Origin: Aggregatilinea lenta
Lineage (GTDB): Bacteria > Chloroflexota > Anaerolineae > Aggregatilineales > Aggregatilineaceae
Assembly (NCBI RefSeq): GCF_003569045.1
Contig: NZ_BFCB01000003.1
Coordinates: forward strand, 372,001-436,000
Reading direction: 5' to 3'
Length of the DNA: 64,000 nt
Position numbers and translations under genes: made by a program. This document shows, piece by piece, positions 11,949 through 31,806 of this stretch. How positions within the stretch are numbered: the stretch's first letter is position 1; every line of letters begins with the position of its first letter. A model generated the notes under the pieces. The model saw only the letters and a program-made list of their open reading frames with translations. It was not told the origin of the DNA and did not search any database.

Positions 11949-12701
11949 TTAGCGGCCTCCGTGCATACGGACCGACTCGCGCAGCGGTTCCGCGACGTGT
12001 CCGTTGCCGGGCTGCTGCAAGCGCCCATCGACCAGCGTCAACAGGCGATCCGCGCGTGCGGCGACCTGGCCGTCGTGCGTGGCGACGATGACCGTCACGC
12101 CCAGATCGCTCCGCAACCCGGCGAACAGATCGAGCACCTGCGCGCCGGTTTTCGTGTCGAGGTTGCCGGTCGGCTCGTCGGCCAGCAGGAGCGTCGGCTG
12201 GGTGACCAGCGCCCGCGCGATGGCGACGCGCTGCTGCTGCCCGCCGGAAAGCTGGTGCGGGCGGTGATTCATGCGGTCGCTCAGGCCGACGAGGTCTAGC
12301 ATCTCCTTAGCGCGCTGCGCGATGTTGCCGGGATGCTCGCTGACGTACAGCGGCACCTCGACGTTTTCGCGCGCGGTGAGGGTCGAGATCAGGTTGAACG
12401 ACTGGAAGACGATGCCGATCTTCTCGTTGCGGAAGCGGGCCAGGTTGCGCTCGCTCATGGTGGTGATGTCCACGCCGTCGATGCAGACCGTGCCGCCATC
12501 GACCGTGTCGATCCCGGCCAGTACGCCCAGCAGCGTCGATTTACCGGACCCGGACGGGCCGGTGAGGGCGATCCAGTCGCCGTGCGCGATGGCGAACGAG
12601 ACGTCGTTCAGAATTTGAATCCGCTCACCGCCCAACGGCAGCGCGCGGCGCAGATTGCGCGCCTCGACGGCATAGGGCGCGGACGGGGTAGGCTTTGACA
12701 T
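11949..12701 (-). CDS. ABC transporter ATP-binding protein (LolD/MacB type)
   Basis: The 250-residue ATPase partner of the FtsX permease that follows it. Walker A is GPSGSGKST (48-56), the signature LSGGQ (151-155) and Walker B LLLADE (171-176), followed by PTGNLD as in the LolD/MacB/FtsE group. AGGAGG precedes the ATG at 12701. This group powers mechanotransmission rather than substrate import. It is separated from the upstream histidine kinase by 347 bases that carry intergenic repeats. Confidence 0.92.
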   Translation of the reverse strand: MSKPTPSAPYAVEARNLRRALPLGGERIQILNDVSFAIAHGDWIALTGPSGSGKSTLLGVLAGIDTVDGGTVCIDGVDITTMSERNLARFRNEKIGIVFQSFNLISTLTARENVEVPLYVSEHPGNIAQRAKEMLDLVGLSDRMNHRPHQLSGGQQQRVAIARALVTQPTLLLADEPTGNLDTKTGAQVLDLFAGLRSDLGVTVIVATHDGQVAARADRLLTLVDGRLQQPGNGHVAEPLRESVRMHGGR

Positions 12702-30488: not shown

Positions 30489-31544
30489 CTACGCTCCTTT
30501 TTGTTTGCCACTCCGGGTGTCGCTTTCGTCGGTGCGGAACTGCTCCCATGTGCGGACGTGCAACGCTGCCGCGACTTCGTGGGTGTCGTGCGTGCCGCAG
30601 GCGAAGCAGTGTACGCCGTGTGTGAGGTAGTTCCAGCCCGCCGACGGGTGCGTGTCGTCGTGGAACGGGCAGCGGAAGTTCCGGCTGAAGCCGCGCTCGT
30701 CCGGCGCGGAGATCGACCACGCGCGCAGTGCCGCCGCCTCGACTTCCTCGACGCACCACTGCTCGTACAGGTCGTACAGCTCGCCGTGCTCCGCCGGACG
30801 TGCGGGCAGCGGATCGGGCGATAGCGGCTCGTCGTCAGGCAGGGCCATTAGCGGCAGCCGTTCCAGCACCGGTTTCAGATCCCCAGAGCCAACCTGAACC
30901 AGCAGGCGGCCAATGTCGCCTTTGCTGCCCGGCAGAAAAGGCAGCGTGTGGATCCTCAGCCGGATCGGCAGATCGGCCAATGTGCGATCCAGCCGCTGCG
31001 CGAACAACGTGCCGGTCGGGTCGCAGTCGGGCGCGATATGCAGCGTGCGCACGCCCAGCCGAGCCAACTGCGCCGTGAACCATGTGGGCACGCGTTTGGC
31101 CTCGCCGTCGAACATGCATGTCGCGTTGTAGATGCCGCCTTCCCACAGCGCCCATACGTCCGCTTCGCCACTGGCGAGCCACAGCCTGCCGTTCGCCATA
31201 CGGACGCGTTCGGCCAGCCTGCCGTCCAGGTCGTAAAACGTGATGCCGTCCGGCTTGCCCGGCAGCCAGCGATACTTGGGCCGTGCCGTGCTGTCGAAAG
31301 CTTTCCAGCGCCGTGCCTCGATGGCAGGGTGTACGGGGTAAGTCCAGCCTTGCGCGCGCGGCAGCAGCACGAAGTGGGCGATGGTCGCGGGGGATAAGCC
31401 GCGCGCCGCCAGCAGATCGGTCCACAACGGCGTGACGTGCCGGGCGCGACGCGATCGCCGGACGCGGACCACGCCGGGACGCAGCGTACGACGGACGCGC
31501 ATGAAACGGGTGCGGCGGATGGGTGCGGATCGGGATGCGCTCAT
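30489..31544 (-). CDS. Primase-like protein: TOPRIM domain followed by a C-terminal CHC2 zinc finger
   Basis: A 351-residue protein. An arginine-rich N-terminus (1-37) is followed by a TOPRIM-like domain with GEADVWAL (126-133) and the acidic DCD pair (D173, D175). A linker follows, then a CHC2-type zinc ribbon: CPFH (C292, H295) and CFAC (C313, C316). In DnaG primases the CHC2 finger is N-terminal and TOPRIM central, so the order is inverted here and the RNA-polymerase domain is not evident. The ATG at 31544 has GAAGG upstream; an ATG at 31610 has none. It may be a mobile-element-derived primase or a nucleic-acid-binding protein. No replication or phage genes are nearby. Confidence 0.7.
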   Translation of the reverse strand: MSASRSAPIRRTRFMRVRRTLRPGVVRVRRSRRARHVTPLWTDLLAARGLSPATIAHFVLLPRAQGWTYPVHPAIEARRWKAFDSTARPKYRWLPGKPDGITFYDLDGRLAERVRMANGRLWLASGEADVWALWEGGIYNATCMFDGEAKRVPTWFTAQLARLGVRTLHIAPDCDPTGTLFAQRLDRTLADLPIRLRIHTLPFLPGSKGDIGRLLVQVGSGDLKPVLERLPLMALPDDEPLSPDPLPARPAEHGELYDLYEQWCVEEVEAAALRAWSISAPDERGFSRNFRCPFHDDTHPSAGWNYLTHGVHCFACGTHDTHEVAAALHVRTWEQFRTDESDTRSGKQKGA

Positions 31545-31806
31545 CGGCGGGCCTTCGGGACTTGCCACGCTCCTTGGCAGGACGACTCTAATGCCTGAAT
31601 GATAGCTCATTTGTTCTAAAAACGCGAATCTTCATAGGGTTTACGGTCGCCCTAAAATGTGGATTTGTCCGCTTGCCCTCCGGCGCGATTCGCATGCAGT
31701 GGCACGCGCTGGATTTGAGCTACAATCATGGGCGTGACGCGTTTTGTGTCCCAGCCTGCGCAGCCAGTTGTCCAGGCGCGGGACCGCATCGTTGAAAGGG
31801 CTGCAC

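Follow-up and report, generated by a model that had tools for sequence, protein, structure and literature searches.

Within a 64,000-nucleotide stretch of the Aggregatilinea lenta genome (hereafter the window; NZ_BFCB01000003.1, positions 372,001 to 436,000), a minus-strand gene at 30489-31544 (351 aa; coordinates include the stop codon) encodes a primase-like protein which, judged by sequence profiles and a predicted structure, consists of a DnaG-type RNA-polymerase core followed by a CHC2-type zinc ribbon. This is the reverse of the usual DnaG order, ribbon first, stated in a passage of PMC9198812. The open reading frame has two orthologues, both in other genera. We regard the protein as a new variant among TOPRIM primases rather than filing it as DnaG, because it differs from DnaG in the position of the ribbon, in the catalytic glutamate and in the helicase-binding domain. 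The explanation that we favor, tentatively and at somewhat below even chances, is that a phage or mobile-element primase has been reduced to a stand-alone, now SOS-controlled protein that would act on single-stranded DNA, perhaps repriming stalled replication forks.

All residues named in an earlier note on this DNA are present in the translation, numbered from the ATG at 31544. The core, delimited by structure model and hhalign, spans residues 34-232 (30849-31445) and comprises a basic N-terminal subdomain and the TOPRIM domain. The latter contains the motif ASGEADVWAL at residues 124-133 (31146-31175; GEADVWAL at 126-133), in which Ser125 occupies the column of the canonical glutamate and Glu127 and Asp129 are invariant, and an Asp-x-Asp motif at residues 173-175 (D173, D175; 31020-31028) that is invariant in all 12 rows of the family alignment. 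C-terminal to TOPRIM lies the zinc ribbon (residues 285-330; 30555-30692), with ligands C292, H295, C313 and C316, and the protein ends about 20 residues past the ribbon and an adjoining helix. A helicase-binding domain was not found at the C-terminus, where Pfam and NCBIfam matches are confined to the ribbon.

Pfam CHC2 matches the window protein at residues 291-319 with an E-value of 0.0017, under the curated cut-off, and one orthologue (L049) at 1.9e-5, with a bit score equal to the cut-off. PHROG primase ribbons match the window protein at 2.7e-6 and 4.9e-6, and 34 of the 46 ribbon residues are identical in each of the two orthologues; with all four ligands in place, the earlier assignment of a CHC2 ribbon holds. 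Pfam returned no TOPRIM match for the window protein, and eight relatives (L011, L012, L013, L017, L044, L045, L046 and L052) pass the Toprim_2 cut-off. The predicted structure, computed with 12 relatives aligned (mean pLDDT 79), models residues 41-230 well (18 of 19 ten-residue blocks at pLDDT 83-97) and the ribbon less well (blocks 291-320 at 63-74). DnaG cores are the top Foldseek matches to this model (best E 1.8e-8), and VIA-align superposes residues 34-241 on Bacillus subtilis DnaG (5guj) with Z 17.3 and an rmsd of 3.1 over 197 residues, followed by T7 gp4 (5ikn; Z 15.5) and Twinkle (Z 14.2). The PKY lysine of DnaG has an aligned counterpart in the window protein, and the TOPRIM fold proposed for residues 100-230 is present in the model, with DnaG cores as its best matches.

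By profile comparison, the module order is truly reversed relative to DnaG, with both modules kept. When the family profile A6 (12 sequences) was aligned by hhalign with 14 Chloroflexota DnaG proteins, two matches were obtained in crossed order: residues 42-184 correspond to the N-subdomain and TOPRIM of DnaG (E 7e-10), and residues 264-341 to its N-terminal ribbon region (E 1e-5). The protein is therefore not a DnaG that has lost its N-terminus, and the inverted order that the earlier note had proposed is borne out. Both orthologues likewise carry the ribbon after TOPRIM. Among 44 sources scanned with separate module profiles, TOPRIM precedes the ribbon in 22 (21 distinct proteins, as L018 repeats L052) and follows it in six (four DnaG proteins, L024 and L065), while nine gave TOPRIM only and seven the ribbon only; three of the proteins that are TOPRIM-only by profile (L022, L063, L064) show an N-terminal Cys/His ribbon by eye. 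In the open-access literature, covered through titles and the opening lines of abstracts, TOPRIM-then-CHC2 primases were not found described.

Relatives were gathered from 61 near genomes, 396 genomes of the class, 400 of the phylum and 154 of the order, with further members from one genome collection and from viral contigs. Six of the 400 phylum genomes matched at 1e-8: the window genome and G357 have the reversed order, L065 is ribbon-first, and L062-L064 gave TOPRIM only. The class search matched 80 of 396 genomes at 1e-3; among the matches listed, the lower scorers are mostly the TOPRIM stretch of ordinary DnaG or a ribbon alone. Four family members come from viral contigs (L044, L045, L046, L056), phage integrases lie near L051 and L053, and resolvases near L011, L051 and L052. 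DnaB-like families follow the ribbon in phage relatives L044 and L045 and in element relative L012, and the P-loop domain carried by L046 and L056 is alignable with, or similar to, that of these DnaB-like relatives. The tail of L011 matches D5_N, DUF5906 and Pox_D5, and L070 carries a Herpes_ori_bp-type helicase; L053 is also long-tailed, and the long tails of L010, L013, L017 and L050-L052 gave no significant Pfam match. A model of L045 finds T7 gp4 (2e-5) and DnaB (2e-4) structures, although the model is weak (mean pLDDT 62.7, pTM 0.40), as is its helicase half.

Direct searches were less productive. No match was found with the window protein in phages and plasmids (tblastn) or, used alone, in viral_contigs, nor with L045 in annotated phages; the core of L045 retrieved only itself from viral_contigs, and L046 gave one partial match (E 2e-4) in an unannotated record. 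The suggestion of a primase from a mobile element stands for the family, found in viral contigs and beside integrases and resolvases, but not for the window locus, where no element family occurs among the neighbors tested. The survey also showed that the homologues are not truncated ordinary primases. A truncated relic of such a primase is ruled out by the reversal and constraint of both modules in three genera and by the ordinary DnaG elsewhere in the genome (one copy, PF08275), and an assembly or frame artefact by the same order in three genomes and in the longer relatives.

A tree of TOPRIM sequences with 36 rows places all but one of the 23 rows of the reversed group on one side of a branch, weakly supported (83/59); L012 and L072 were placed in this group by kinship, the ribbon profile having found no ribbon in them. 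The three stand-alone proteins cluster together (100/99), then with L010 and L050-L053 (99/98), and this assemblage falls within longer forms (95/91). As the stand-alone branch is nested among longer forms, its members were probably shortened by losing the C-terminal part. Grouping all 23 reversed rows in one clade is rejected (p-AU 0.0018), with L079 falling among the outside rows. In L079 (1-2451; G793:C183), the TOPRIM half shares 49% identity with L021, and the ribbon-helicase half has its closest relative in L070, a reversed-order protein (29% over 556); we read this as a second event, in which a core would have been swapped into another ribbon-helicase chassis. Derivation of the ribbon from AEP proteins is not favored, the best outside ribbon scored being the N-terminal one of L065.

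Alignment to DnaG places Ser125 in the canonical TOPRIM glutamate column, so that GEADVWAL, put forward earlier as a TOPRIM signature, lacks the catalytic glutamate at its usual place. T7-type TOPRIM domains combine a Glu with DxD, according to a passage in PMC5517523; in the window protein the DxD of this triad is present (D173, D175) and the Glu is missing. Across the reversed group, read in the 36 rows with L065 left out, the column holds Glu in six of 23 rows (L013, L017, L075, L076, L078, L083), the residue in the other 17 being S, A, G, T or N. The 12-row alignment is invariant at R79, K81, K90, Y91, W93, E127, D129, D173, D175 and D210, as well as at ribbon ligands C292 and H295, part of the second ligand pair being missing in L050 and L053. 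The alternatives are a displacement of the acid by two positions, to Glu127, and a loss of priming, so that catalysis by this core is putative. Four TOPRIM proteins outside the reversed group (L020, L021, L022, L081) have Asn in this column (NGE) and Glu two residues on; replacement of the glutamate is therefore not confined to the reversed family. A displaced glutamate would provide a clean test of the part played by the TOPRIM acid in priming, and mutational work on the acidic residues of T7 gp4 reportedly exists.

Stand-alone genes were detected in three of the 154 genomes of the order, in three genera. The two orthologues are 57% and 60% identical to the window protein and 64% identical to each other, and NG86 estimates of dN/dS range from 0.29 to 0.37 over the three pairs (0.34 and 0.37 for the window gene against the orthologues) with dS near 1, a pattern of purifying selection at the sequence level. 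The three loci share no neighboring genes: none of the other window ORFs of at least 90 aa matches the flanks of L048, and those of L049 yielded one match, to a window ORF at 11949-12701, far from the primase-like gene. The adjacent CheY-like gene, to which the earlier note had drawn attention, is not conserved, as no adjoining match was found in either set of flanks. By Pfam, six window neighbors comprise a response regulator, a thioesterase, a GH31 glycosidase, a DUF6544 protein, a BadF-type ATPase and one protein with no match, and four orthologue neighbors are a zinc-type dehydrogenase, an MFS transporter, a GNAT-type acetyltransferase and a YkuD transpeptidase. Integrase, phage or element families were not found among these 10 proteins, the remaining neighbors being known as ORF lists alone. 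A small mobile element surrounding the gene was rejected, there being no tRNA in the window, no convincing flanking repeats, and a GC content of 0.64-0.69 over the gene. In the PADLOC set of known defense proteins, the RTasDnaG-like and RT_UG29 models, which have no curated cut-off, match at most weakly.

The best clue to function, a LexA/SOS-box-like site, falls outside the coordinates of the earlier note. The site, TAGAACAAATGAGCTA at 31603-31618 on the minus strand, is common to both orthologues (matrix score in the window, 16.4) and is accompanied by a -10-like hexamer, TATCAT (31599-31604, minus strand), which was recognized by eye, overlaps the end of the box and is absent from the sigma-70 scan list. 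Upstream of all three stand-alone genes, TAGAACNNNTGNGCTA is followed by a -10-like hexamer. Because the in-frame ATG at 31610 falls within this promoter element, translation more likely starts at 31544 or later. In these three genomes lexA always carries GAACNNNNGTTC plus GAACNNNNGTGC upstream, and a GAACNNNNGTGC site precedes just one of the two recA copies; both recA genes are full-length, the pairs being L116/L117, L121/L124 and L122/L123. All four imuA-like RecA-family genes have sites, and one adjoins an IMS-family polymerase gene; imuA and imuB are established gene names. Other LexA-like or RecA-like matches either have no site (L115, L125, L127) or have one far upstream (L120, L131, L132; -168 to -235).

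A matrix was built from 15 sites of lexA, recA and imuA-like genes, none from a primase gene; the motif had been spotted by eye before testing, and the training sites were chosen as near-matches to GAACNNNNGTTC. It scores the window site at 16.4 and the orthologue sites at 23.4 and 23.2, whereas 217 control regions upstream of mechanical ORFs, fused relatives included, average 3.7 (sd 3.3); the three site scores are reached by 3, 0 and 0 of the 217. As the G003 recA site is letter-identical to the L049 site, scoring was repeated with the genome under test left out of training, giving 16.5, 22.8 and 22.5; among 206 controls, from which the fused relatives had been removed, 3, 0 and 0 score at least as high. 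A site within one mismatch of GAACNNNNGTTC is found at 12 of 128 control ORFs. Of the three boxes, that of the window gene scores lowest, GAGC replacing GTGC, and the one-mismatch pattern is not enriched in the window genome (18 places versus 22 for the reversed pattern). The presence of an SOS-like site in three genera suggests a role under DNA damage. Weak LexA control is known for the dnaG operon of Escherichia coli.

None of 13 fused relatives has a site directly upstream (best score 12.0, with mechanical start codons). Within the sister group, elements L051 and L052 carry sites scoring 17.3 and 16.6 at 1.4 kb upstream of the fused primase, before another same-strand gene; they map near L051:6508 and L052:2995, and the gene that they precede is located between the integrase-side genes and the fused primase. 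DNA damage may induce these elements, and SOS control of the stand-alone genes may have been inherited from such elements instead of being recruited in the host, which makes host recruitment a less probable explanation. Elsewhere in the window genome five further exact box matches occur, three by AlkZ-like DNA glycosylase, RibD_C and glyoxalase genes and two adjoining frames with no Pfam match, and a strong site also accompanies a RibD_C gene close to the G001 orthologue. Candidate SOS regulon members are thus L096:195-1451, L098:911-1465, L097:1519-1947 and L008:17245-17841 (AlkZ-like, RibD_C in two genomes, and glyoxalase-family).

In the reading that we favor, the gene would stay under LexA repression as long as the DNA is intact. 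Upon damage, the ribbon and the basic subdomain would attach the protein to single-stranded DNA where forks have stalled, and a primer made by the TOPRIM core, with Glu127 perhaps standing in for the missing canonical glutamate, would let synthesis resume past the lesion, alongside the ordinary DnaG of the genome. Against repriming, priming may have been lost with the canonical catalytic glutamate. The protein would then be a catalytically dead core kept as an SOS-induced binder of single-stranded DNA or nucleotides, in fork protection or in interference with phage replication, an explanation that we consider somewhat unlikely. Ser125 and the S, A, G, T or N of 17 of the 23 reversed rows are in its favor, and Twinkle offers a parallel, the animal protein being a helicase only, through changes in its primase domain, according to the abstract of PMC3610141. 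Conservation nevertheless extends to the remaining acids, the PKY lysine and the ribbon, and phage versions beside a helicase-like domain have the same glutamate change. A bolder form of the repriming model, which we find fairly doubtful, equates the protein with PrimPol, as its bacterial counterpart with an unrelated fold (DnaG/TOPRIM): a second primase, inducible by damage and controlled by LexA, made from a phage replication protein minus its helicase half, with the palm-then-zinc-finger layout of PrimPol and a catalytic glutamate moved by two residues.

The gene might instead be cargo of a LexA-regulated prophage or integrative element, or a remnant of one, and serve no function in the host. 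The composition of the family (phages and elements), the patchy distribution of stand-alone copies (3 of 154 genomes) with no shared neighbors, and the LexA-box-like sites 1.4 kb upstream of the primase in L051 and L052 would fit this origin; yet the 10 neighbors tested include no integrase, phage or element family, constraint has persisted over long divergence (dN/dS 0.29-0.37, dS near 1), and the box lies directly at the stand-alone gene in all three genomes, which leaves a relic quite unlikely in our estimate. SOS control would also suit a recombination protein, and the TOPRIM domains of RecR (Z 9.3) and gyrase (about 7) do appear lower in the structure list, but DnaG and T7 gp4 cores score far higher (Z 14-17), with the basic N-subdomain covered, the PKY lysine of DnaG aligned and a ribbon of primase type, so that a TOPRIM nuclease or RecR-like recombination protein is highly improbable. 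If the stand-alone branch does represent a damage-induced primase, the existence of a dedicated bacterial repriming enzyme becomes a directly testable question.

The window protein shares with DnaG both modules, a common core fold (Z 17.3) and a ribbon homologous by profile; in contrast to DnaG, it has them in reversed order, has Ser for the canonical Glu, lacks a helicase-binding domain after the core, and is encoded by a gene that stands alone in a genome with an ordinary DnaG elsewhere. T7 gp4 and Twinkle resemble it in core fold (Z 15.5 and 14.2), and the longer phage relatives, like gp4, carry a DnaB-like domain; the zinc-binding domain comes first in gp4, as a passage of PMC9198812 has it, whereas in these relatives it lies between TOPRIM and helicase and in the stand-alone form it comes last. 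Primase ribbons of jumbo phages are also found away from the usual N-terminal place, but, in the account given in part of PMC7824862, as a separate gene accompanying a DnaG-like TOPRIM protein, unlike the C-terminal fusion described here. The RTasDnaG-like profile of PADLOC (DRT-associated primase) gives weak ribbon and TOPRIM matches (E 4.9e-8 for L049), although the profile has its ribbon (68-100) before TOPRIM (319-363). The ribbon-then-TOPRIM order usual in DnaG-type primases is thus not obligatory: a whole family of proteins from phages and mobile elements retains the opposite order, and cores appear to have been exchanged between the two layouts, as in L079.

PrimPol would be the closest functional analogy to the stand-alone protein. 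In PrimPol and other AEP primases with a C-terminal zinc finger, a palm is followed by a Cys-His-Cys-Cys zinc module, which PrimPol needs for priming (both points from a passage in PMC8136793). The AEP palm is, however, a fold unrelated to the TOPRIM of the window protein, which has no AEP family match in Pfam and a DnaG-type fold. A passage in a review (PMC12448304) describes a PrimPol-like specialized primase as absent in B. subtilis. The window genome itself encodes an AEP-TOTE primase-polymerase with a C-terminal CHC2 ribbon (L088:2766-3725; G000:C3, about 2081765-2082724); imuA-like and IMS-family polymerase genes lie near it on one side, with a ParA-like gene on the opposite side. C-terminal ribbons also occur in RepB-type primases (L090:3144-3899, L092:3003-3758 and L093:2441-3376; L090 and L093 assigned by Pfam, L092 by likeness to L090), and the palm-then-ribbon layout therefore recurs on a different catalytic fold.
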